11,058 nucleotides of DNA from Deltaproteobacteria bacterium (GTDB lineage: Bacteria > Myxococcota_A > Polyangia > HGW-17). Numbering within the stretch: the first letter of the stretch is position 1; the number at the start of each line of letters is the position of its first letter. The stretch is taken from assembly GCA_003249585.1 (NCBI GenBank), contig QKIM01000334.1, positions 1-11,058 of the forward strand, given 5' to 3'. The position numbers were made by a program, and so were the translations under genes. A model generated the notes under the pieces. It had not been told where the DNA came from. It saw nothing but the letters and a program-made list of their open reading frames with translations, and ran no database searches. This document shows positions 722-11,058 of this stretch, in pieces.

Positions 722-2506
722 ATGCGAATCGCCGCGACTCTTTTCTCGATTTTTTCCGTCTTTCAGCTCTCCTGCGGTGAAGCTGGAGCGGCAAAGGAGA
801 AGCAGGTCCTCCCCAAACCGGCAGACGGTCTGGAGACGCTGAACACCGCCCCCGTCAAGGCTCAGTGTATGAGTGACGAGAGCGCGACGGACTACGGCGA
901 GAAGATTCTCAAGCCCGCTGTCTGGCACGAGGCGACGGGGATCACCAACTCCATGGACCTCCCTCCCCTCACCGGCCTGCCCACTCTGGCTCAGGTGCGC
1001 GATGCGGTCGAGGACGGCTTCAGACGTATCCCCCGCAAAGGCAAGTGGTTCAAATCCCTCTCCTTCGCCACCCCGGCGAAGGTGTATGAGAAGCCCGATC
1101 TCAAGGCCCTGGAGATGGGGCGCATGGAGCCTCAGACCCGGGTCTCCCCCGTGGGATACCACAAGGGGACCGGATGCAAGGGAGGCTGGCTGCGCATCGC
1201 CCTGAACGGGTACGTCTGCCTGCGCAACCTGAAGCCCGCCCGCGACATGCCCACCACGGTCGTGCTCCCCGATGCCAAGGCCGGCGCCCTCACCCCCGGA
1301 CAGTACTCCTATGTCCGCATCGGCGGCGCTCCCTGGTACCCCACCCGCGGCGCCGTCAAGTCTGGCAAGAAGGGCGGAGATCTGGCGGCGGGATTCTTTG
1401 TCCGCTTCAAGCGCTTCACGCGGATCAACGGGAAGAACTACTGGAAGACCATGCGGAACCGGTACATCCCCGTGGATCGTCTGGCCCGCTTCATCCCCTC
1501 GAAGCACCAGGGCGCCGAGCTCACCGGGGGGCTCACCCTCCCCGTCCTCTTCCCCATCGCCAAGAACGGCAGCAAGGGTGTCTCCGTCCCCGTCTACGAC
1601 CGTCCCGGCGGGAATGTCGTCGCCAAGCTCCCCTACCACAAGGCGGTGCACATCTTCGGCGAAAAGAAGCTGGGCAAGCGTCGCTTCTACCGTATCGGCC
1701 CCTGCCGCTGGGTCTCCTCCCGCCAGGTCGCCGCCGCCTTCCCCTCTCCCGTCCCCCCCGGCGTGCGCCCCTCGGAGCAGTGGATCGACATCAACCTGGA
1801 GCGGCAGACCCTCGTGGCCTATGAGGGCCCGACGCCGGTCTTCACCACCATCATCTCCTCGGGAAAACCCGGGCACTCCACCCGTCACGGGGTCTTCCGC
1901 GTCTGGTGGAAGGTCCCGGAGATCGACATGAAGAACGAGGTGGGGGCCAAGGACGAGTATCTCGCCTCGGCCGTCCCCTGGACCCTCTTTTTCTGGAAGG
2001 GCCAGGCGCTCCACGGCGCCTACTGGCACGATGACTTCGGCAAGACCAAGAGCCACGGCTGCGTCAACCTTGCGCCCCTGGATGCCCGCTATCTCTATGA
2101 GTGGTCGAGGCCCTATCTCGGCGCGGGCTGGCGGTACCAGTGGACCGGCGCCTCCTATCCGGGGATCACCGTCCAGATCCGACGCGACGACGAAGACCGC
2201 CCCATGGTGTGGGGCGTGGCCCGCAACTTCATCCCCGCTCCCCAGCTGGCCAAGATGGACAGCCGCTACAAGGCCGACATCAAAAAGGAGACCCTGGAGA
2301 TGCTGGCCGGCCCCACCAGCAAGGACGGCGAGTCCATGGCCGACAGCACTCCCGAGAAGATGAAGGATCCTGCGCCAGTCAAAGGCAAGACGGTGAAAAA
2401 GGCCAAAAAATCCCGCCGCGCCGTGGCGCGAAGGGGCAGGTCCTCACGCAGCCGCCGGGCCCACAGACCCCGCAAGGGCCGCCGGGCCCGCCGCGCCTCC
2501 CGCTGA
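722..2506 (+). CDS. Secreted L,D-transpeptidase (YkuD) with SH3-like domains and a basic tail
   Basis: 594 residues; a strong AAGGAGGT site 8 bases upstream fixes the start. Residues 1-18 form a signal peptide ending in FQLSC; Cys18 may be lipidated although Gln at -3 departs from the usual lipobox, so ordinary secretion is the alternative. Residues about 116-170 and 289-340 look like SH3-type wall-binding domains. The YkuD domain spans about 352-488, beginning WIDINLERQTLVAYEG and carrying HGAYWH (His431) and the signature SHGCVNL with catalytic Cys447. The family makes 3-3 cross-links in peptidoglycan or joins lipoproteins to it through meso-diaminopimelate; which applies here cannot be told. 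After residue 550 comes an unusual Lys/Arg-rich tail to the stop. It is convergent with the thioredoxin-like gene, with 8 bases between their stops. The enzyme family is near certain; the exact substrate is unknown. Confidence 0.93.
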   Translation: MRIAATLFSIFSVFQLSCGEAGAAKEKQVLPKPADGLETLNTAPVKAQCMSDESATDYGEKILKPAVWHEATGITNSMDLPPLTGLPTLAQVRDAVEDGFRRIPRKGKWFKSLSFATPAKVYEKPDLKALEMGRMEPQTRVSPVGYHKGTGCKGGWLRIALNGYVCLRNLKPARDMPTTVVLPDAKAGALTPGQYSYVRIGGAPWYPTRGAVKSGKKGGDLAAGFFVRFKRFTRINGKNYWKTMRNRYIPVDRLARFIPSKHQGAELTGGLTLPVLFPIAKNGSKGVSVPVYDRPGGNVVAKLPYHKAVHIFGEKKLGKRRFYRIGPCRWVSSRQVAAAFPSPVPPGVRPSEQWIDINLERQTLVAYEGPTPVFTTIISSGKPGHSTRHGVFRVWWKVPEIDMKNEVGAKDEYLASAVPWTLFFWKGQALHGAYWHDDFGKTKSHGCVNLAPLDARYLYEWSRPYLGAGWRYQWTGASYPGITVQIRRDDEDRPMVWGVARNFIPAPQLAKMDSRYKADIKKETLEMLAGPTSKDGESMADSTPEKMKDPAPVKGKTVKKAKKSRRAVARRGRSSRSRRAHRPRKGRRARRASR

Positions 2507-3014: not shown

Positions 3015-3992
3015 TCAGTGGGTGCAGTGGGCGCCGATGTCGTGGTTGACGCCGATGCCCGTGCAGCGGGTAAAGCCCAGCTCGGTGCAGTCACGGTCGT
3101 AGTAGGTGCCGTCCAGACAGATCCGGGCGACGAAGGAATCCAGACAGTACTCCTCACCCTCCTCACACTCCTGCCCGGCGGGCTCACAGCGGGGGATGTC
3201 CGTCTCGTCGGCGGGGGGCTCGCACATCTTGTCGCCGGGCAGGCCGGTGCAGTCCACAGAGGTGGTGATGCCCAAATCGCAGGTGACCTTGGAGTCTCCG
3301 TCACAGGAGGGCACGAACTCGTCGGGATTGCACGCAGCGCCGTCACCGACGCAGTAAAGTCTGTACAGTTGCTGCTCTTCGTCGACCAGCAGCTTGGCGC
3401 AGTCGAGCCCCAGGACGGCACAGTCCTTGGTGTTGACGTACCCGGTGTCACATACGTGCATGAGGCTGCCGTCGCACTCGATCTCGAAGGTATCCGGGTC
3501 ACAGGCGGACACGGAGCAGTAGGTGTTGTCGTCGTCTCCAACGACGCACTCGTACCCCGCCTCGCCGCAATCCATGGCGTACATGGTGCCCGAGAAGCTG
3601 TCGCAGTAGTAGCGGACGGTCCCGTCACAGTACCCCTTCTGCGTCGCCGGATCGCAGGACTGGGGCAACAGGCCGTTGCCGAAGCACTTCTCCACCTCTT
3701 CACAGACACCGCCGGTCTGCAGCACGCACCGGTACAGTTCGTTCCAGATGGGCTGGGTGTGCTGCTGCACGACGGTGTTGTAATGGGCCGTGACGCACGG
3801 AGCGATGTACCCGCCGTTGAGCACCTCGCAGGCGTCCCGGATGAGGCAGGCGTCAAGAATGTCGTCATGGGTGAGATTCTGGAAGTTGTTGGCGTTGTTG
3901 GTGGTGTTGTTCCCGCTGGAGCCATCGTCGCAGGCAATGACGCCATAACCGGCCAAAATCATTAAAGCTACAAAAAAAATGTGGTGTCTCAT
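3015..3992 (-). CDS. Cysteine-rich repeat lipoprotein
   Basis: 325 residues from ATG 3990-3992. A start 17 codons further upstream is also open, but MRHH followed by a hydrophobic run and VIAC (Cys21) makes a proper lipoprotein signal only from here. Two Asp residues follow Cys21; in E. coli Asp at +2 would keep it in the inner membrane, a rule that may not hold in this lineage. Next comes an Asn/Thr linker (about 24-39), an N-terminal domain with six cysteines (49-103), then four tandem units of six cysteines each (113-159, 164-214, 221-269, 276-323). Counting Cys21 there are 31 cysteines. Such repeats occur in secreted proteins of Myxococcota and Bradymonadota; no enzyme motif is visible. 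It is probably a disulfide-stabilised surface or periplasmic protein. It is first in a two-gene unit with the thioredoxin-like lipoprotein. Confidence 0.85.
   Translation of the reverse strand: MRHHIFFVALMILAGYGVIACDDGSSGNNTTNNANNFQNLTHDDILDACLIRDACEVLNGGYIAPCVTAHYNTVVQQHTQPIWNELYRCVLQTGGVCEEVEKCFGNGLLPQSCDPATQKGYCDGTVRYYCDSFSGTMYAMDCGEAGYECVVGDDDNTYCSVSACDPDTFEIECDGSLMHVCDTGYVNTKDCAVLGLDCAKLLVDEEQQLYRLYCVGDGAACNPDEFVPSCDGDSKVTCDLGITTSVDCTGLPGDKMCEPPADETDIPRCEPAGQECEEGEEYCLDSFVARICLDGTYYDRDCTELGFTRCTGIGVNHDIGAHCTH
3024..3656 (-). repeat. Four tandem six-cysteine protein repeats
   Basis: Within the lipoprotein, four units of about 47-51 residues share the pattern C-x(6-10)-C-(D/L)-x-(6-7)-C-x(8-11)-DC-x(4-7)-C-x(9-15)-C. 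A unit typically reads CDP..(E)CDG....VCD.G.....DC..LG..C. The fourth unit is the most divergent, beginning ECEEGEEYC. The repeats are clear at protein level, not as near-identical DNA, so the duplications are old. Confidence 0.8.
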
Positions 3993-3999
3993 GGGGATC

Positions 4000-4028
4000 A
4001 TTATATGGAAAGGTTTTGCACCGGGCAA
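4000..4028 (-). promoter_or_regulatory. Promoter for the Cys-repeat lipoprotein unit, possibly leaderless
   Basis: On the minus strand there is a perfect TATAAT at 4000-4005 and TTGCCC at 4023-4028 with an ideal 17-base spacer. Only GATCCCC separates the -10 box from ATG 3992, so transcription would begin at or next to the start codon. No Shine-Dalgarno sequence is present between them, which agrees with a leaderless message. Confidence 0.5.
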
Positions 4029-4035
4029 GTTCAAA

Positions 4036-4065
4036 TTGGACAACCGGCTCGAAATCCACTATGAA
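4036..4065 (+). promoter_or_regulatory. Weak candidate promoter for the zinc-ribbon gene
   Basis: TTGGAC (4036-4041) and TATGAA (4060-4065) are 18 bases apart on the plus strand. The match is poor, but it is the best candidate in the divergent 185-base gap (3993-4177). It would give a GC-rich leader of roughly 105 bases. Confidence 0.22.
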
Positions 4066-4130
4066 TAGTCGCCGCCGCGACGGAGCTTCCCGAAGCGGCC
4101 CACGGTGCGGACCCACGCGGCCCGCGCGAC

Positions 4131-4157
4131 CGGGCCCCGCCCCCGAGGGAGGGCCCG
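4131..4157 (+). other. GC-rich inverted repeat in the leader of the zinc-ribbon gene
   Basis: CGGGCCC (4131-4137) and GGGCCCG (4151-4157) are perfect 7-base complements around a 13-base C/G-rich loop. The repeat ends about 7-10 bases before the ribosome site. As RNA it would be a very stable hairpin. No T run follows, so it is not an intrinsic terminator. It may affect translation or message stability, or be an incidental product of high GC. Confidence 0.35.
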
Positions 4158-4177
4158 CGAACACTGAAGGAGCTACC

Positions 4178-4486
4178 ATGGCCTATTACTGTTATAAATG
4201 TAGCAACCAGCTGGAATTCGCCGTCAAGGGCGGCGTGGTTGTCGGCCGCCTCGACACCTGTGACCACTGCGGCGCCAACCTCCACTGCTGCAAAAACTGT
4301 TACTTCTACGATCCCTCACTCCACAACGAGTGCCGTGAGAGCTACACCGACTTCATCCGTGACCGTGAGGCGCCCAACTTCTGTTCGTCCTACCGGTTCA
4401 AGGACTCCGACGAAGCTCCCGCCTCCGGGGCCGACATGGGCTCCGCCAAGGCAAAGCTGGAGGATCTGTTCAAAAATCTGAAGTGA
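4178..4486 (+). CDS. Small Cys-rich zinc-ribbon-like conserved protein
   Basis: 102 residues from ATG 4178, with GAAGGAG ending 7 bases upstream. The frame is open further left, but that extension has unnatural composition and no ribosome site. Cysteine pairs sit at YCYKC (5, 8), TCDHC (28, 31) and HCCKNC (36, 37, 40), followed by YFYDPSLHNECRE and DREAPNFCSSYRF. This layout (CxxC, CxxCGxxL, C.NC.FYDP..HNECRE, then (D/E)REKANFC) recurs in small uncharacterised proteins of many deltaproteobacteria-related and spirochaete genomes. The cysteines suggest one or two bound zinc ions; no catalytic motif is seen. No signal peptide, so cytoplasmic. The C-terminal 25 residues (SAKAKLEDLFKNLK) are helical. 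It precedes the amidase by 62 bases, which contain that gene's own promoter, so the two need not be co-expressed. Function unknown. Confidence 0.85.
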   Translation: MAYYCYKCSNQLEFAVKGGVVVGRLDTCDHCGANLHCCKNCYFYDPSLHNECRESYTDFIRDREAPNFCSSYRFKDSDEAPASGADMGSAKAKLEDLFKNLK

Positions 4487-4548: not shown

Positions 4549-5271
4549 ATGTCATTACTCTATCTCGCCCTCTTCAGCCTCGTCCCCCCTTCGGTGCAGG
4601 TGGTCCTCGACCCCGGCCACGGCGGATCGAACCTGGGTGCCCGCGCCTTTGACGGCAGCGTCTACGAGAAGGTCCTCACCCTCGACCTGGCCCGCCGAAT
4701 CGAAAAAATCCTCACGGCCCGTGGGATCTCCACACGACTCACCCGCACCCGCGACACCTACATGACCCTCCTCTCCAGGGCGGATCTCGCTCGAAAGTGG
4801 AACGCCAACTGCTTCGTCTCGCTGCACTTCAACGCCTCCACCCTCCACAATCGGCACGGCATGGAGATCTTCTACCCCGAGCAGGACCGGGGGCCCTCAC
4901 TGGACGAGATCACGCTGCTGTCCGGGACGGGATCCAGAATACTGGGGGGGCGAGAGACGATCCGGCCCCTCATCGTCGCCTCCTACCTCAACACCCTTGG
5001 GGAGAGCGTGAGCGCCTCGGGCTCGAGGGTCTTCGCCAAGAAGCTGGCCTGGCGGCTCCTGGGGGACGGGTTCCGCATCCGCTCCATCAGGAAGGGGGAC
5101 TACGATGTCCTCGCGGGCACGGGCACCAAGGCCATCCTCCTCGAGGGCGGGTTCATCGACAACCCCAGAGAGCGCATCACCATGCTCCGGGCCGAGACGC
5201 GGGACCGCATGGCCGCCTCGGTGGCCCGTGGTCTCGCCGCCCTCTGCCGCACAAACGCACAAATCTACTGA
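4549..5271 (+). CDS. N-acetylmuramoyl-L-alanine amidase (Amidase_3 family)
   Basis: 240 residues; it cuts the bond between N-acetylmuramic acid and L-alanine of the stem peptide in peptidoglycan. The zinc-binding and catalytic residues of the family are all present: DPGHGG with His24, Glu40 in VYEK, His93 in VSLHFNAS, and Glu199 in AILLEGGFIDN. Residues 110-160 form the variable insertion seen in this family (in AmiA/B/C-type enzymes it holds a regulatory helix). The N-terminus (MSLLYLALFSLVPPSVQ) is hydrophobic like a signal peptide but has no positive charge and is very short, so export is likely but not certain. There is no separate wall-binding domain, so the protein is little more than the catalytic domain. 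It has its own promoter and a likely terminator, and is convergent with the hydrogenase-like operon (64 bases between stops). Confidence 0.92.
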   Translation: MSLLYLALFSLVPPSVQVVLDPGHGGSNLGARAFDGSVYEKVLTLDLARRIEKILTARGISTRLTRTRDTYMTLLSRADLARKWNANCFVSLHFNASTLHNRHGMEIFYPEQDRGPSLDEITLLSGTGSRILGGRETIRPLIVASYLNTLGESVSASGSRVFAKKLAWRLLGDGFRIRSIRKGDYDVLAGTGTKAILLEGGFIDNPRERITMLRAETRDRMAASVARGLAALCRTNAQIY

Positions 5272-5328: not shown

Positions 5329-5350
5329 GCGGCCGTCAGCGGCCCTTTTT
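5329..5350 (+). terminator. Intrinsic terminator of the amidase gene, overlapping the end of hyfI
   Basis: GGCCG (5331-5335), loop TCAG, CGGCC (5340-5344), then C and TTTTT (5346-5350): a short GC stem followed by a T run on the plus strand. G5329-C5345 can extend the stem past one bulged base. The T run falls inside hyfI, encoding its near-terminal lysines. On the minus strand no T run follows, so it would work in one direction only. The stem is short, hence moderate confidence. Confidence 0.4.
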
Positions 5351-6106
5351 CCGGTCCCCGATCTGCCCGACCATGCGCAGCAAGCCATCCAGGATCGTCC
5401 AGGGGTTTGGAGGACAGCCGGGGATGTACAGATCCACGGGCAGCATCCCCTCGACGCCCCCGCACACTTCCTCGTTGCCCTGGAAGATTCCCCCGGAGAT
5501 GGCGCAGCTCCCGACGGCCACGACGAACTTCGGCGAGGGGATCGCGGCCATGGTCTTCATGAGCGCGACCTCCATGTTCTTCGTGACGGGGCCCGTGACC
5601 AGCACGCCGTCGGCGTGGCGCGGAGAGGCGACGAACTGAATCCCGAAGCGGGAGAGATCAAAGGTGAGCGTGTTCAGCACGTTCACGTCCGCCTCGCAGG
5701 CATTGCAGCCTCCGGCGCTGACCTGTCTGAGCTTCAGCGAGTGTCCGAACACGCTTCTGGCCTTCGCGTCAAGCGCCGTGGCCAGCTTCCACGCGTCCGT
5801 CGACAGATCCTGGCGGCCCGAGGTCGCCATCCGGTAGTCCCTGGAGAAGGAGATGGCCCCGCTCGTGCATATTCGGGCACACTCCCCGCAGAAGAGACAC
5901 TTCCCGAGGTCCATGGAGAGGGTCTCCCCCTTCCGGGAGATGGCCCCGACAGGACAGGCGTCCATACAGTCCCGGCAGTCGCCGCGACAGGCGCCGGCGT
6001 CCACCTCGGGACGTCCCATGAACAACGGCGGCAACACAGGCTCCACCTGGGGGAATCTGCTGGTGTTGTACCCCTGTTTCAACCTGGCTTTGATGATCCT
6101 GTACAT
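5336..6106 (-). CDS. hyfI: NuoB/HyfI-like small subunit fused to a 2[4Fe-4S] ferredoxin domain
   Basis: 256 residues. The N-terminal part (about 36-90) is a two-cluster ferredoxin domain: Cys40, 44, 47, 51 in CRGDCRDCMDACP (first spacing is three residues, not the usual two) and Cys70, 73, 76, 80 in CLFCGECARIC. In E. coli hydrogenase-4 this part is a separate protein, HyfH. The C-terminal part (about 125-246) is the NuoB-like electron-transfer subunit with proximal-cluster cysteines 134 and 137 (GGCNACE), 201 (GSCAISGG) and 231 (IPGCPPNPW). All twelve cluster ligands are therefore kept, giving an intact three-cluster path from a soluble donor to the large subunit. It is the last gene of the operon seen here, 9 bases after hyfG. 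The family call is secure. The partner large subunit lacks a [NiFe] site, so it belongs to an Ehr-type complex. Confidence 0.92.
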   Translation of the reverse strand: MYRIIKARLKQGYNTSRFPQVEPVLPPLFMGRPEVDAGACRGDCRDCMDACPVGAISRKGETLSMDLGKCLFCGECARICTSGAISFSRDYRMATSGRQDLSTDAWKLATALDAKARSVFGHSLKLRQVSAGGCNACEADVNVLNTLTFDLSRFGIQFVASPRHADGVLVTGPVTKNMEVALMKTMAAIPSPKFVVAVGSCAISGGIFQGNEEVCGGVEGMLPVDLYIPGCPPNPWTILDGLLRMVGQIGDRKKGR

Positions 6107-6115
6107 CGTTCAACC

Positions 6116-7624
6116 CTATAGATCGTGTCCACAGTAGGACAGATTGAAGCTCTTGTTGCATAATGGAAAATCAGAGATCTGCTGGTCTCTCAGCGCGAGG
6201 GCCAGGCCAAACCAGTTGTGAAAGGACGGATCGGTGATCTTGTAATGGGACAGGTTCCCGTCCGCGCCCGTCAGCGCCACATGGCAGATCTCGCCCCGCC
6301 AGCCCTCGACGAGGGAGACTACGATGCTGTCTCCCTCCAGCGCGCCCGTGCTCTGGAACGTCGGGGTATCGGGGAGCATCTTGAGTTCCTCCTTGAGGAA
6401 CTGCACGGAGTGCCGGCTCTCCAGATACCGGATGACCGCCCGGGCATGGACGTCGCCCGAGAACAGGATCACGGAGGGGACCGCATGGGTCTGGTAGATG
6501 CCCCAGGGCAGGTCGGACCGCACGTCTATGTTGAGCCCGCATGCCCGGGCCGCCACCCCGACGAGACCGGCGCGCACCGCGTCCTCGCTGGACACGGCGC
6601 CCGTCCCCCTGAACCTCCCGAGGACGCTGGAGGTGCTCCAGAGCAGATCCACGGCGTTCTCGGTCAACTTCCAGGTGGTGGACGCCCGCTTGTTCAAGTC
6701 CGCGGCGAGCTCGGCCGCGATGTCCTGCGTGACCCCGCCGGGCCTGACGAGATTGCGGCCAAACCGGTTGCCGCACACGGACCCCGTCATGTTCAGGTAA
6801 TCACCGCGCAGCCTGCCGCAATAGGATGCGGTCGGGAGAAACCCCACGTCCCCGGCCAGGGCGCCGAGATCGCCCGTGTGGTTGGCAATTCTCTCCAGCT
6901 CCAGCGCGATCCCCCTGATGGCGTGCGCCCGGGCAGGGATCACGGTGTCCGAGAGGCTCTCCAGGTTCCTCGCCCAGGCGGTGGTGTGCCCGATCGTCGT
7001 GTCGCCCGCCAGCGTCTGGATCAGATGGATTGCCTTGCCCAGGGGGGCTCTGAGGATCGCCCTCTCGATGCCGCGGTGCTGGTACCCCAGCTCGATCTCG
7101 AGGTGGAATACCTTCTCTCCATGGCATTGAAACCGGAAATGGCCGGGCTCGATGATGCCCGCGTGCACCGGCCCGACGGCGACCTGGTGCACCTCGGGGC
7201 CCTGGACCCTGAAGTAGTCCGTCACGCACGGCTCGATCGCCTCGTCTGCGCGGTTCCATGCATCGAGGCTGCCATTGTAGCTCTTGTGGAAGCGGATGGG
7301 TTTCAGCCACGGATGCCTCTCGGGCACGACCCCGTACTGCTCGGCGATCTCCCGCTCGAACCAATGCACCTGGGGGATCTCGGGGGTAAGCGAGGGGAAG
7401 GTCTTTTCGATCCTGGTCCGAAAAAGAGCCAGATTCCCCTGATTTCTGTTGGTCAGGACGGCCAGCAGCATGAGGCCGTCCCCTGAGGGGACCCCGAAGT
7501 ACGACGACACCGAGAATCCCTGTGTGATAAAGGACTTGAACAGATCCGCGAATTCCGCGAAGGGATACTCCGGGACCTGGGAGAAGGAGGCTTTCTGTCC
7601 GTTGCGCAGTGTCAGAGTGCTCAT
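6116..7624 (-). CDS. hyfG: HyfG/NuoC-NuoD-like large subunit lacking [NiFe] ligands (Ehr type)
   Basis: 502 residues. Residues 1-125 match NuoC (VHWFEREIAEQYGV, then ERHPWLKPIRF). Residues 145-502 match NuoD and group-4 hydrogenase large subunits (GPVHAGIIEPGHFRF, ELGYQHRGIE at 178-187, ELERIANHTGDLGALAGDVGF). In [NiFe] hydrogenases the first motif reads R-x-C-G-x-C-x-x-x-H; here it is TLAGDTTIGH, with Ala206 and Thr209 in place of the cysteines. The second motif, normally DPCxxC, is NLSYCG at 494-499, with Ser and Gly in the aligned places; Cys498 is one position off. The protein stops at DL, where hydrogenases carry a removable C-terminal peptide. It therefore should not bind nickel-iron, resembling complex I and Ehr complexes. 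It probably forms a modified substrate or quinone-like cavity near the proximal cluster; the substrate is unknown. ATG overlaps the hyfF stop by 4 bases. Confidence 0.92.
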   Translation of the reverse strand: MSTLTLRNGQKASFSQVPEYPFAEFADLFKSFITQGFSVSSYFGVPSGDGLMLLAVLTNRNQGNLALFRTRIEKTFPSLTPEIPQVHWFEREIAEQYGVVPERHPWLKPIRFHKSYNGSLDAWNRADEAIEPCVTDYFRVQGPEVHQVAVGPVHAGIIEPGHFRFQCHGEKVFHLEIELGYQHRGIERAILRAPLGKAIHLIQTLAGDTTIGHTTAWARNLESLSDTVIPARAHAIRGIALELERIANHTGDLGALAGDVGFLPTASYCGRLRGDYLNMTGSVCGNRFGRNLVRPGGVTQDIAAELAADLNKRASTTWKLTENAVDLLWSTSSVLGRFRGTGAVSSEDAVRAGLVGVAARACGLNIDVRSDLPWGIYQTHAVPSVILFSGDVHARAVIRYLESRHSVQFLKEELKMLPDTPTFQSTGALEGDSIVVSLVEGWRGEICHVALTGADGNLSHYKITDPSFHNWFGLALALRDQQISDFPLCNKSFNLSYCGHDL

Positions 7625-9081
7625 CGCGCCACCCCTTCCAGCAGCATCGCGGCTGATCCGAGCTTCGCCTGCAGCACATCGGGCATGTACAGCCCGAGGA
7701 CGAGGAGGGCGACACCGAGGGTGAGCGGAGGAACGACAGACAGAAGCGACTCAGACCTGCGCTCGACCGTCCGTGCGCCGAAGACCATCCCGAGCATGAT
7801 GGCGGACATCCCGACAAAGATAATGAACAAAAGGAACATGAACAGCGCGGCGGTGAAGTAGTGCCCCTTGTCGAGGGCCGCCCGGAGAATGGCGAACTCG
7901 CTGAGGAACGTGCCAAAGGGCGGGGCCCCGGTGATGGCCAGGAATCCGGCGATCCACAGCCCCCCTGTCCAGGGCATCGTCCTGATGACTCCCTGCACCC
8001 GGGACGAGTCCTTGGTCGCGAACCTCGACAGGATGCTCCCCGCGGCGAAGAAGAGCATCACCTTGGTGAGGCTGTGGTTGACCGCGTGGAACAACGAGCC
8101 GAAGACGCCTCCCCCGCCGATGCCGACGCCCAGGGCGATGATGCCCATGTTCTCGACGCTGGAATAGGCGAGCATCCTTTTGAAATCAGGCTGCCGCAGG
8201 ATGAAGATCGCGCCTATCACGATGGAGAACACCCCGAATATCACCAGCAGCTCGGCGCCGAAATCCCCGATCCCTGCGGCGGCGCTGACCTGTTGCATCC
8301 TCAGGATGCCGATCAGCGCGCAGTTCAGGAGCGCACCCGAGAGCAGCGCGCTGACGGGGGCCGGAGCCTCGCTGTGGGCGTCGGGGAGCCACGTGTGGAA
8401 GGGCGCGATCCCCATCTTCGTCCCGTACCCGACCAGCATGAAGATGAAGGCCGTCTTCAGCCATTTGGTGTTGAGGGTCGAGGCGTTCTGCAGGAGGGCG
8501 TCGATGGTGAGATCCGAATGGAACTTCACAGGCAACGTCATCCTCAGAAAGAAGATCCCGATGAGGGCGAGGACGATGCCGACCGAGCAGATGATGAGGT
8601 ATTTCCATGCCGCCTCGAGGCTCTTCCGGCTCTTGTGGTAGTAAACCAGCGGCGTGCTGGCCAGGGTGGTCGCCTCGATGGCCACCCACTGCAGCGCGAA
8701 CTGGCGGGCCACGATGGCCAGGGACATGGCCGAGAGCATGACGAGGAGGCACCCCATGAACAACGCCTCGGGATCGATCCGCCTGGGCTCGTGGAGCCCG
8801 TGGTCAGGGGCGGAATGCTCCCTCATGTACCCGATGGAGTAAAAGCCGATGGCCAGAAACAGGACGCTGGTCAGGACCAGGAAGATCGCGCTGAGGGAAT
8901 CGACCCCGATCCAGGCCCCGCGGGCGGGGTTCGAATCGGGGATGGAGAGATACAGGGACAGCACCAGATGGAAGGCGGCGGTGACCAGCAGCACCAGGCG
9001 GCGCAGCCCGGCCGATCGAACCAGGAAAAGCCCGAGTCCTGCGAAAAACGGGATGATCAGGAGCAGCAGAAGAAGTGTCAC
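7621..9081 (-). CDS. hyfF: HyfF-like proton-translocating membrane subunit
   Basis: 486 residues, slightly shorter than E. coli HyfF (526). The start is GTG at 9079-9081, supported by AGGAGG 7 bases upstream and by a GTGA overlap with the hyfE stop. It is almost wholly hydrophobic, with about 13-14 membrane segments, and belongs to the NuoL/M/N antiporter-like family. Ion-path residues of that family are visible: Glu136 in WVAIEATTLASTPLV, Lys222 and His229 in YGTKMGIAPFHTWLPDAHSE, and Lys301 in RQPDFKRMLAYSSVENMG. The last motif and overall similarity favour HyfF over NuoM. In the complex it would carry protons or Na+ across the inner membrane, driven by electron transfer in HyfI-HyfG. The stop overlaps the hyfG start, indicating coupled translation. 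Confidence 0.92.
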   Translation of the reverse strand: MTLLLLLLIIPFFAGLGLFLVRSAGLRRLVLLVTAAFHLVLSLYLSIPDSNPARGAWIGVDSLSAIFLVLTSVLFLAIGFYSIGYMREHSAPDHGLHEPRRIDPEALFMGCLLVMLSAMSLAIVARQFALQWVAIEATTLASTPLVYYHKSRKSLEAAWKYLIICSVGIVLALIGIFFLRMTLPVKFHSDLTIDALLQNASTLNTKWLKTAFIFMLVGYGTKMGIAPFHTWLPDAHSEAPAPVSALLSGALLNCALIGILRMQQVSAAAGIGDFGAELLVIFGVFSIVIGAIFILRQPDFKRMLAYSSVENMGIIALGVGIGGGGVFGSLFHAVNHSLTKVMLFFAAGSILSRFATKDSSRVQGVIRTMPWTGGLWIAGFLAITGAPPFGTFLSEFAILRAALDKGHYFTAALFMFLLFIIFVGMSAIMLGMVFGARTVERRSESLLSVVPPLTLGVALLVLGLYMPDVLQAKLGSAAMLLEGVAR

Positions 9082-9746
9082 TGTCCCACCTCCTGTCGTG
9101 AATCAGCCGAGAGGTTGTCGGAGAGCTCATCGAGTTTGTCGGTGTCCATGTGGGAGAACTCTGAATCGAGATGGAACAACAGATTGCCCATGATCAGGAT
9201 GCCGACCACCACATCCAGCAGGATGCCGAGCTCCACGGTGAAGGGGAACTCGAGACTCATCCCGATTCCCACACCGTAGACGCCGTTTCCCAGCACCAGG
9301 TAGGCCAGCGCCTGGGTCAGCGCCTTCTTCCGGCTCATCATGAGGAACAGCCCGGTCAGGATGAGATAAAACGCGCTGGACAACACGATCGCCGGTGTCG
9401 CCGTGTGGTGGAGCTTGAACTTGACCGTGAACCAGCCGGAGAGGATGAGGAGCAGGATGCCCACCATGATGGAGGTCCCGTAACTGATGAAGGGTTCGAT
9501 CTCGTGCGTGATCTCGCTGTTGTTGAGGCTCCGGTTCAGCAGGAAGGGGAGGATGATGCCTTTGGCCAGGATGATGCTCAGGCCGAGGATCCAGACCCCC
9601 AGGCTGAAGTGTCCCGAGATCTTGACGATGGGCAGGAGCCCCAGAAGGAGTCCCTGGATGGCCACGACCAGGATGGCGACCTTGAGGCGGCTCGAACCCA
9701 GGAGCAGAAGACTCGAAAGAATCAATAATATTGAAATATTACTCAT
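9078..9746 (-). CDS. hyfE: HyfE-like (NuoK-related) membrane subunit
   Basis: 222 residues (E. coli HyfE has 216) with roughly seven membrane segments. The C-terminal half resembles NuoK: ALAYLVLGNGVYGVGIG (146-162) followed by FPFTVELGILLDVVVGILI, with buried acidic residues Glu172 and Asp178 in the region where NuoK has functional acids. In group-4 complexes this subunit links the proton-pumping arm to the HyfC-like anchor. A charged tail after residue 193 (many Asp, Glu, Ser) is cytoplasmic. The start follows the hyfC stop by 3 bases, with GGGG as the only ribosome-site-like element, and its first codons are AT-rich, which may aid initiation. The assignment rests on the conserved C-terminal block and gene order. 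Confidence 0.88.
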   Translation of the reverse strand: MSNISILLILSSLLLLGSSRLKVAILVVAIQGLLLGLLPIVKISGHFSLGVWILGLSIILAKGIILPFLLNRSLNNSEITHEIEPFISYGTSIMVGILLLILSGWFTVKFKLHHTATPAIVLSSAFYLILTGLFLMMSRKKALTQALAYLVLGNGVYGVGIGMSLEFPFTVELGILLDVVVGILIMGNLLFHLDSEFSHMDTDKLDELSDNLSADSRQEVGQ

Positions 9747-9749
9747 ATT

Positions 9750-10664
9750 TTACCCCAACACCCTGAAGATGAGGGCGAACAGGCTCAGCACCGCAGACCC
9801 GATGAGGACCTTGGGAATCTGCAGGAGCTTGAGGCGCCCCATGACGGACTCCACAATCCCGATGGCGATCGCGATGAGGACGATCCCTGACAGGAAGAGG
9901 AGGGGCTGGGCCCACAGGGGGAAGGAATTGACGGGGAACATCAGGCTGACGATCAGCGCGCTGAAGATCCAGAGTTTCAGGGCCGAAGCATACAGGATGA
10001 AACCAAAATCCGGCCCGGAGTTGTCGAGCACCATCACCTCGTGGATCATGGTGAGCTCGAGGTGCGTGTTGGGATCGTCCACGGGCATCCTGGAGTTCTC
10101 CGTCAGCAGCAGCATGAACCAGGATCCCGCCACGATGATGAGCCCCACACCGGAAGACTGCCACACATCGGAGGACATCCCCGAGATCATGGCCGACAGG
10201 GAGATTTTTCCCGAGAACTCCGCCAAGACGAGCAGACCGATGAACAGCGAGGGCTCGGACAGCGCCGCGAACTGCACCTCACGGCTCGCCCCCATCCCCT
10301 CGAAGCTGGACCCCGTGTCCATGGCCGAGATGACGGTAAAGAACCGGGCCAGCCCCAGAACATAGGCGACAAGGAAGACGTCACCGGCGAAGTGGACGGG
10401 GGAGGCAATCCGGCCCCACGGGAGGAAGGCCACGACGAGGGCCATACAGGCCAGCACCACCGAAGGGGCGATCCTGAAGAGGAGGCTGGTGGTGGAACTG
10501 TACGTGAACCCCTTGTGCAACAGCCTCCAGATATCGTAGTACGGCTGAAGGATGGTCGGCCCCCGCTTCCCGGCGAAGATCGCCTTTACCCGGTTGATGA
10601 TCCCCGGGATGAGGGGCGCGAACAGGAACGCAAAAAATGGAAGAACCCAGTGCAATATCCGCAT
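9750..10664 (-). CDS. hyfC: HyfC/NuoH-like membrane anchor subunit
   Basis: 304 residues (E. coli HyfC about 315) with about eight membrane segments. Hallmarks are clear: GKRGPTILQPYYDIWRLLHK (32-51), GMGASREVQFAALSEPSLF (123-141) and PVDDPNTHLELTMIHE (194-209) followed by MVLDNSGPD. The acidic residues in these cytoplasmic loops correspond to the NuoH residues that connect the redox module to the proton path. The subunit holds HyfG and HyfI on the membrane. The ATG lies 9 bases after the hyfB stop and 3 bases separate its stop from hyfE, so all are one transcript. Retention of the NuoH acidic loops suggests the energy-coupling machinery is intact although the [NiFe] site is gone. Confidence 0.94.
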   Translation of the reverse strand: MRILHWVLPFFAFLFAPLIPGIINRVKAIFAGKRGPTILQPYYDIWRLLHKGFTYSSTTSLLFRIAPSVVLACMALVVAFLPWGRIASPVHFAGDVFLVAYVLGLARFFTVISAMDTGSSFEGMGASREVQFAALSEPSLFIGLLVLAEFSGKISLSAMISGMSSDVWQSSGVGLIIVAGSWFMLLLTENSRMPVDDPNTHLELTMIHEVMVLDNSGPDFGFILYASALKLWIFSALIVSLMFPVNSFPLWAQPLLFLSGIVLIAIAIGIVESVMGRLKLLQIPKVLIGSAVLSLFALIFRVLG

Positions 10665-10673
10665 AGTCTTGCC

Positions 10674-11058
10674 TCACGCCTTCCAGATCAGGAGCACGAT
10701 CAGGGTGACCGCGATATACAGAAGATATCCATGGATCTTGCCATGCTGGAACCTCCGCAGCGGCGTGATTGCCCTGTCCACAAAGAGGAAGATCCGGCGG
10801 AACATCTTCTCGAGGGCGACATCGGAGGTGTGGGTACTGAACCGGGTCTCCCGCGGAAAAAACCCCGTCACCTCCGGGCCATGCTTCTCGGTCCTCAGGA
10901 CGGGCGTGAAGAGCTCCGTAATCGGCTCGGCGAAGGAGGAGGAGCTGTACTGCATGGACGTCTCGGGCCGGATATAGCCACAATCCCAGGTGCCGACGAC
11001 GGTCTGCCTGCGGCCTCTGAGCAGCCACGTGCGCAGCAGATAGAGCACGCCGATGAGC
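10674..11058 (-). CDS. hyfB: HyfB-like proton-translocating subunit, C-terminal part only
   Basis: The frame enters from the right edge and ends at 10674, showing the last 127 residues or so. GTWDCGYIRPETSMQYSSSS and the following FAEPITELFTPVLR are typical of the C-terminal region of HyfB/HycC-type antiporter-like subunits. The last 20 residues form a membrane helix ending LIVLLIWKA. An internal GTG at 11046-11048 is not the start, because the frame remains open to the edge (LIG precedes it). Together with HyfF the complex has at least two antiporter-like subunits; whether a third (HyfD-like) lies upstream cannot be seen. Confidence 0.85.
   Translation of the reverse strand, partial: LIGVLYLLRTWLLRGRRQTVVGTWDCGYIRPETSMQYSSSSFAEPITELFTPVLRTEKHGPEVTGFFPRETRFSTHTSDVALEKMFRRIFLFVDRAITPLRRFQHGKIHGYLLYIAVTLIVLLIWKA

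Follow-up and report, generated by a model that had tools for sequence, protein, structure and literature searches.

A hydrogenase-4-like complex without [NiFe] ligands: a member of the Ehr family with a re-lined pocket

The locus and its closest described relatives

The coupling of ion translocation to electron transfer in the complex I superfamily is a long-standing problem. Energy-converting hydrogenase-related (Ehr) complexes, which span many bacterial phyla judging by record titles, are described in print as lacking the [NiFe] ligands. The published passages at hand, which concern Geobacter sulfurreducens (GSU0739-0745), Nitrospira, CPR and Riflemargulisbacteria, report a Hyf-like subunit set with a large subunit that has no CxxC motifs and lies near the group 4 hydrogenases. 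In these passages charge translocation coupled to redox is suspected but unproven and no reaction is proven, in agreement with the first-pass annotation of the present DNA, which had called the reaction not established.

The window analysed here spans the complete contig C293 (11,058 bp). It belongs to an assembly of 682 contigs with a completeness of 73%, most likely a MAG. Its minus strand carries Hyf-like membrane subunits and a small subunit together in one operon, in the order hyfB (C-terminal piece), hyfC, hyfE, hyfF, hyfG and a small subunit gene with a fused ferredoxin domain, with 4-bp overlaps at hyfE/hyfF and hyfF/hyfG (Table 1). In the HyfG/EhrL-like subunit a NuoC-like N-terminus is fused to a NuoD/[NiFe]-large-like domain, and in the small subunit, EhrS, a 2[4Fe-4S] ferredoxin-like domain is fused to a NuoB/HyfI-like one. 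The first-pass annotation held every other subunit to be intact; this stands for HyfC, HyfE, HyfF and the small subunit, whose ORFs are complete, whereas the contig ends inside hyfB, so that the statement can be checked only in part. HyfB is present as a 124-aa C-terminal ORF, as compared with 665 aa in a close relative (L028, in a record named Myxococcota, with match coordinates and a neighbouring gene identical to those of G003, same family), and the DNA upstream of hyfB lies off the contig. HyfF keeps the charged residues common to E. coli HyfF, e.g. E136, K222 and K340. Elsewhere in the window's assembly, searches for PF00346 and for HycE-like proteins gave no match.

Table 1. Positions of the Ehr genes and of the sites discussed in the text, in window coordinates
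Feature	Position	Strand	Details
HyfB, C-terminal ORF	10674..11048	-	124 aa; gene continues past contig end
HyfC / NuoH-like membrane anchor	9750..10664	-	304 aa
HyfE membrane subunit	9078..9746	-	222 aa; NF008556, 71.6 bits, under cut-off 136
HyfF antiporter-like membrane subunit	7621..9081	-	486 aa
Large subunit, HyfG/EhrL-like	6116..7624	-	502 aa; ATG...TAG; without [NiFe] ligands
Loop, residues 150-163	7136..7177	-	VGPVHAGIIEPGHF; Glu159 (aligned to MbhL Glu21) and His154
Former metal motif 1, residues 203-213	6986..7018	-	QTLAGDTTIGH; Thr204, Ala206, Asp208, Thr209
Former metal motif 2 / C-terminus, residues 485-502	6119..6172	-	DFPLCNKSFNLSYCGHDL; Ser496, Gly499
Small subunit EhrS	5336..6106	-	256 aa; 12 cluster Cys
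Eight ferredoxin-type Cys of EhrS, residues 40-80	5867..5989	-	
Proximal pair of EhrS	5696..5707	-	Cys134-x-x-Cys137
Remaining proximal ligands of EhrS	5504-5506; 5414-5416	-	Cys201; Cys231

Compared with the published Ehr complexes, no departure is seen in the window. From formate hydrogenlyase and hydrogenase-4 (HycE, HyfG; group 4a) it differs by the absence of the [NiFe] ligands and by its ferredoxin domain, which is part of the small subunit instead of being encoded by a HyfH-like gene of its own between hyfB and the small-subunit gene. Complex I (NuoB, NuoCD, NuoH, NuoM) shares with the window the core fold, the membrane arm and the loss of the four [NiFe] cysteines, but the window has neither the quinone His/Tyr ligands nor the tandem cysteines in the small subunit, and no NADH-module gene was found among the ten window ORFs scanned. 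MBS resembles the window in that it is a group 4-like ion pump with an emptied [NiFe] site. According to passages of PMC7684303, however, MBS keeps two of the four [NiFe] cysteines, has a three-Cys proximal cluster and has no equivalent of MbhL Glu21, whereas the window keeps none of the four, has four cluster cysteines and has Glu159.

In a tree that took in a Geobacteraceae sequence (L056; EhrL of G. sulfurreducens itself was left out), the 37 Ehr rows, window included, stand apart by one change (100/100) from 12 hydrogenase and 13 NuoD rows. The assignment to Ehr proposed in the first-pass annotation holds in view of the Hyf-like operon, the absent ligands and a clade separate from both the CxxC group 4 hydrogenases and NuoD; the ligands and the clade also rule out an active group 4 hydrogenase. 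The Ehr complex encoded in the window is an unremarkable representative of a family that is known but uncharacterised, and the interest lies in findings at the level of the family. As far as we searched, three of these are new: the HTH-EIIA gene at the head of the operon, the signature that replaces the ligands and the repeated loss of the proximal cluster.

The remainder of the window contains a YkuD L,D-transpeptidase gene (722-2506, plus strand), a gene for a Cys-rich 342-aa protein that has no NCBIfam or Pfam match (3015-4043, minus strand), a small Cys-rich ORF with a zinc-ribbon look and an unsure start (4016-4486, plus strand) and an N-acetylmuramoyl-L-alanine amidase gene (4549-5271, plus strand) that is convergent with the ehr operon.

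The emptied pocket and its electron wire

HyfG was aligned pairwise with HycE and with segments of P. furiosus MbhL and T. thermophilus Nqo4, and a multiple alignment included E. coli HycE, HyfG and NuoCD; the counts refer to 89 aligned sequences, window included, with L001-L004 left out as duplicates. The two CxxC motifs for [NiFe] binding are absent from the window protein and none of the four [NiFe] positions is Cys: in pairwise and multiple alignments alike, Arg is replaced by Thr204 and the four cysteines by Ala206, Thr209, Ser496 and Gly499. All five replacements had been read from the sequence beforehand, as had the gap-free course of the alignment through the first metal motif and the retention of HRGIE and of an IGHTTAW-like segment, and the comparison with the reference proteins bears out each of these readings. 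Among the 89 sequences the first ligand position is occupied by Ala (79), Ser (9) or Cys (1), the second by Thr (81), Ser (5) or Ala (3), the third always by Ser and the fourth always by Gly; the single Cys, at position 206, has no partner Cys at 209, 496 or 499. Since the same replacements recur across the 89 sequences they are not a sequencing accident, and since the site is conserved as well, the earlier view that this is not gene decay was correct; both explanations are ruled out. The window protein stops where HycE has a C-terminal tail. Five of the ten CxxC rows (L112-L116) also stop there, and the missing tail was therefore dropped as proof of lost maturation.

To judge by the alignments, the emptied [NiFe] site is re-lined and has not decayed. 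His154, Glu159, Gly207, Asp208, Asn490, Lys491, Ser492, Leu495, Ser496, Tyr497 and Gly499 are invariant in the 89 sequences. When conservation is measured as the mean top-residue fraction (alignment A1, 52 sequences), the 19 residues 484-502 come first (0.978, rank 1 of 484 windows) and the loop at 150-162 reaches 0.96, as against 0.68 for the rest of 120-502; motif 1 (203-213) is moderately conserved (0.865, rank 75 of 492). With its conserved C-terminus and loop and its invariant residues, the site is thus selected for something other than [NiFe] binding. The predicted structure of the large subunit has the fold of HycE, with residues 153-158 below pLDDT 50 and an average of 43 for the last two residues.

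In EhrS, Cys is found at all 12 expected cluster positions. Each of the eight ferredoxin-type cysteines is present in 75-82 of 83 small subunits and each of the four proximal ones in 81-82 of 83; the proximal pair is spaced Cys-x-x-Cys as in hydrogenases, and a tandem Cys-Cys is absent. In the large subunit, the quinone ligands of Nqo4, His38 and Tyr87 (numbering from passages of PMC7684303), fall on Ile158 and Gly207 in the pairwise alignment. The same passages describe MbhL Glu21 as key for proton reduction and as absent from MBS. Because the window has the Cys-x-x-Cys proximal pair as well as Glu159, aligned with MbhL Glu21, we infer that it keeps a hydrogenase-type delivery of electrons and protons around the emptied pocket.

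Accompanying genes and relatives without the proximal cluster

Upstream of hyfB, 52 of 58 loci carry a gene that fuses an HTH_17 to a PTS_EIIA_2 domain (Pfam assignments made for L026 and L028), and in 49 of these 52 it overlaps hyfB or is within 294 bp of it, measured to the estimated start. The six loci from which it is absent are L056, L073, L079, L082, L093 and L096. The 58 were retained from 85 loci, with an EhrL match of at least 400 bits; left out were loci with EhrL below 400 bits, on the minus strand, with HyfB not located or with less than 900 bp upstream. The histidine that we take, from EIIA domains, to be the phosphate acceptor is kept in 54 of 55 HTH-EIIA proteins. HPr is present in 47 of 51 Ehr genomes, with no match in G000, G051, G069 and G071. 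Among 39 relatives, matches to both domains were found on the Ehr contig of G003, G019 and G029, on another contig of G017, and in G005, a genome without a strong EhrL; no match spanning both domains was found in the Ehr-bearing G004, G006, G007, G008, G028 and G036. No report that links HTH-EIIA to Ehr was met in the open-access library searched. In the window's genome, contig C110 ends inside an HTH_17 ORF (L104:3-320, minus strand) that, among the examined loci, is matched best by the ehr-linked genes of L026 and L023; the operon of the window may have its missing head here, the two contigs not being joined. Another contig of this genome, C625, carries a stand-alone EIIA-like ORF matched by the HTH-EIIA query (L103:36-434, plus strand), directly followed by an ORF that by sequence resembles a cation/proton antiporter (L103:456-1892, plus strand); here, too, an EIIA-type gene adjoins an ion transporter.

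Apart from the HTH-EIIA gene and the core subunits, the loci have no convincing neighbour cluster that more than a few of them have in common; ORFs were called mechanically, without annotation, and clusters read as antisense shadows of core genes were set aside. Passages of PMC6349859 propose a formate dehydrogenase partner for Ehr in other lineages and state that neither the ubiquinone nor the menaquinone pathway was identified in full in the FDH-Ehr genomes. A dedicated partner of this kind was rejected here, as no such neighbour cluster is common to many loci, and no formate dehydrogenase was found among the ten window ORFs scanned.

We also surveyed 49 genomes with a close EhrL, mostly MAGs whose completeness is not given. 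PF02621 (MqnA/D) is present in 23 of them, weakly in one (G073), and MenD in three more, while neither menaquinone route was found in the other 23, including G042 (97% complete; it holds L028, the window's sister in the tree, and its HypD is in the same place as in G003) and G050 (96% complete, same places as G019). Single absences are weak, as completeness is not given for the 49 and G000 is incomplete. Among relatives, PF02621 was found in none of 11 Ehr-bearing genomes, the window's own included, with MenD checked in two of them, G003 (as G042) and G019 (as G050); PF02621 is rare among the relatives overall (a match in 8 of 39, seven over the cut-off), so that its absence there is not specific to Ehr. 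UbiA-family genes, present in 45 of the 49, were dropped as a quinone test because they are too generic, and PF02621 and MenD were used instead. The pattern argues against menaquinone as an obligate acceptor, but not as one acceptor. HypD is present in 37 of the 49 genomes and was not found in the other 12, nor in five of ten Ehr-bearing relatives (G004, G006, G007, G017 and G019), and these absences suggest that Ehr needs no [NiFe] maturation; the window's own genome has HypD, possibly for another hydrogenase.

Some relatives have lost parts of the electron wire. The EPGHFRF loop and an NKS close to the C-terminus are retained in seven large subunits, selected from 242 matching records, that are encoded on plasmids of Variovorax (two operons), Rhodococcus, Allomeiothermus, Methylocalor, Azospirillum and Paraburkholderia. 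A ferredoxin domain is missing from the small subunits (175-180 aa) of Rhodococcus, Methylocalor, Paraburkholderia and Variovorax operon 2, and the Allomeiothermus small subunit lacks all four proximal cysteines. Among the best 120 of 2650 relatives of the latter, 71 lack the proximal four, 46 keep all and 3 are mixed, a share that is biased by the clusterless query and says nothing on the family at large. The proximal four are kept in 81 of 83 small subunits; L070 has none of them, and the stretch of L008 stops short of two. In a 70-row tree the loss of the proximal ligands needs three changes, namely in the DEDS group, in the Thermaceae-type group and in L070 (bootstrap 5-95% 3-3; one change in 0% of 200 trees; the starred branches alone force two), i.e. 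the ligands were lost about three times, where the DEDS group (P0045 and others) is known here from small subunits alone and may not be Ehr. No report of a clusterless Ehr was met in the open-access library searched.

Thermaceae-type small subunits keep only four cysteines, presumably those of the second ferredoxin cluster by textbook assignment. A database search for large subunits with the C-terminal 48 residues as query gave at least 7998 matches, out of 8000 candidates scored; 103 of the best 120, the ones listed, were compared, proteins below 470 aa being left out. The 48 large subunits of the Thermaceae type all have His154, Glu159 and EPGHF, and 47 of them have NKSF (the other row is gapped there), while motif 1 is altered in all 48 to ER-x-G/S-G/S-E/D-P/S. 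The acid of this motif stands at 208 or 209 depending on one gap (ungapped, 208 is G/S and 209 is E/D), and a loss of Asp208 in the clusterless type was dropped as a claim, since that gap puts the acid on 208. Of the charged pump residues checked, clusterless Allomeiothermus keeps 9/9 in HyfF and 8/9 in HyfB, and in L070 the cluster ligands are lost while the signature of the large subunit is unchanged and motif 1 shows no change as yet. The Glu159 loop and the C-terminal signature thus survive loss of the neighbouring cluster, and in our reading these two elements serve coupling or structure and motif 1 is closer to electron chemistry.

Possible functions of the Ehr complex

The best explanation, to which we give about an even chance, is that Ehr is an oxidoreductase that pumps ions, is fed by ferredoxin and reduces a small or organic acceptor other than H2, menaquinone not being obligate. 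The membrane arm (HyfB, HyfC, HyfE and HyfF) would pump ions and the peripheral arm would carry three [4Fe-4S] clusters. The fused 2[4Fe-4S] domain would most likely receive electrons from ferredoxin or another soluble donor of similarly low potential, and these would then cross the four-Cys proximal cluster to a metal-free pocket re-lined by His154, Glu159, Asp208, Asn490, Lys491, Ser492, Ser496, Tyr497 and Asp501, where the acceptor would be reduced in a proton-coupled step that drives ion translocation; H2 would be neither made nor used. We infer the direction of the electrons, the donor, the acceptor and the ion; the lost ligands, the intact wire cysteines, the kept HyfF charges, the conserved pocket and the patchy menaquinone pathway are what can be read from the sequences. 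Several observations count against this explanation: no gene for a donor or an acceptor was seen travelling with the operon, HypD is common in Ehr genomes and present in the window's own, UbiA-family genes are so frequent that there may be another quinone route, and the three small-subunit groups without proximal ligands indicate that not every member depends on electron transfer into the pocket.

That Ehr is instead a ferredoxin:quinone (menaquinone) oxidoreductase, a short complex I without the NADH module, is in our view unlikely. The architecture and the fold family are those of complex I, MBS and complex I show that a larger acceptor can be accommodated once the [NiFe] site is emptied (passages of PMC7684303), and PF02621 or MenD is present in 26 of 49 Ehr genomes and the UbiA family in 45; but Ile158 and Gly207 occupy the places of the Nqo4 ligands, the proximal cysteines have the hydrogenase spacing and are not in tandem, 23 of the 49 genomes, G042 and G050 included, have neither menaquinone route, and in the passages of PMC6349859 the quinone pathways of FDH-Ehr genomes were not identified in full. 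An MBS-like reduction of sulfane or polysulfide, with the proximal cluster acting on S-S bonds in the emptied cavity, would fit the fact that MBS, too, has lost the quinone ligands and the [NiFe] centre. Yet the chemistry of MBS rests on a three-Cys cluster and does without a Glu21 equivalent (passages of PMC7684303), whereas the window has four cysteines in hydrogenase spacing and Glu159 is present in 89 of 89 sequences, which makes this reading improbable. Still more improbable is a different metal centre held by the shifted ligands Asp208, Cys489, Cys498 and His500: these are frequent (89, 85, 85 and 83 of 89, respectively) and both cysteines are kept in the 103 near relatives compared among the matches listed, but each Cys is replaced (N/I or S/A) in 4 of 89, so neither is indispensable, and positions 489, 498 and 500 vary further in the plasmid relatives and in the Thermaceae type. 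Formation of H2 from formate by Ehr and formate dehydrogenase has been suggested for G. sulfurreducens, where Ehr subunits are more abundant on formate than with hydrogen (passages of PMC7894505); we find it the least credible of all, given the missing [NiFe] ligands, the 12 of 49 Ehr genomes in which HypD was not found and the lack of a formate dehydrogenase among the ten window ORFs scanned.

A reading of another kind takes Ehr as in essence an H+/Na+/K+ transporter, gated by a hydrogenase-like arm that senses a ligand or the redox state; for some members of the family electron transfer would be optional or a vestige, and the EIIA-type regulator would tie the complex to ion or carbon-energy homeostasis. 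We rate it as rather unlikely, just behind the quinone reading. It would accommodate the 71 of the best 120 of 2650 small subunits without the proximal four and the three changes on the tree, the pump charges kept in clusterless Allomeiothermus, the EPGHF (48/48) and NKSF (47/48) of the Thermaceae type, the unchanged large-subunit signature of L070, and the head gene in 52 of 58 loci with its phospho-histidine in 54 of 55 proteins. On the other hand, 81 of 83 small subunits, the window's included, keep all four proximal cysteines, the 120 were found with a clusterless query and their share is biased, and the Thermaceae type, with its motif 1 altered in 48 of 48, may be a divergent side branch. 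The stricter form, in which Ehr would be primarily a PTS-EIIA-regulated ion transporter of the complex I superfamily with the dead [NiFe] pocket as a ligand- or redox-gated coupling site, is slightly less probable again; here the wire would have been discarded in about three lineages while the coupling loop and the membrane pump persist where they can be read. If this were true, these would be relatives of complex I that move ions without redox chemistry, and if the clusterless variants still pump, ion translocation would be separable from electron transfer in the complex I superfamily. The conserved signature (the Glu159 loop, motif 1 and the C-terminal NKSF..SYxGxD), the conserved regulator gene and the natural clusterless variants are handles that make the function of Ehr accessible to experimental tests.

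Some minor observations concern the plasmid relatives. The Rhodococcus HyfF (L150:10412-11929) has L, A and L in place of the equivalents of Glu136, Lys222 and Lys301, so that this particular copy may not pump. On plasmid pMESIL01 of Allomeiothermus silvanus (NC_014213.1, 21491-22294), next to the L151 copy, the clusterless EhrS has a second match that covers 92% of the query at 100% identity. Spermine/spermidine synthase-domain genes adjoin the Ehr operons without a ferredoxin domain in Variovorax (L149:16514-17248) and Paraburkholderia (L154:5897-6730), and an HPr gene lies near the Paraburkholderia operon (L154:3838-4101).
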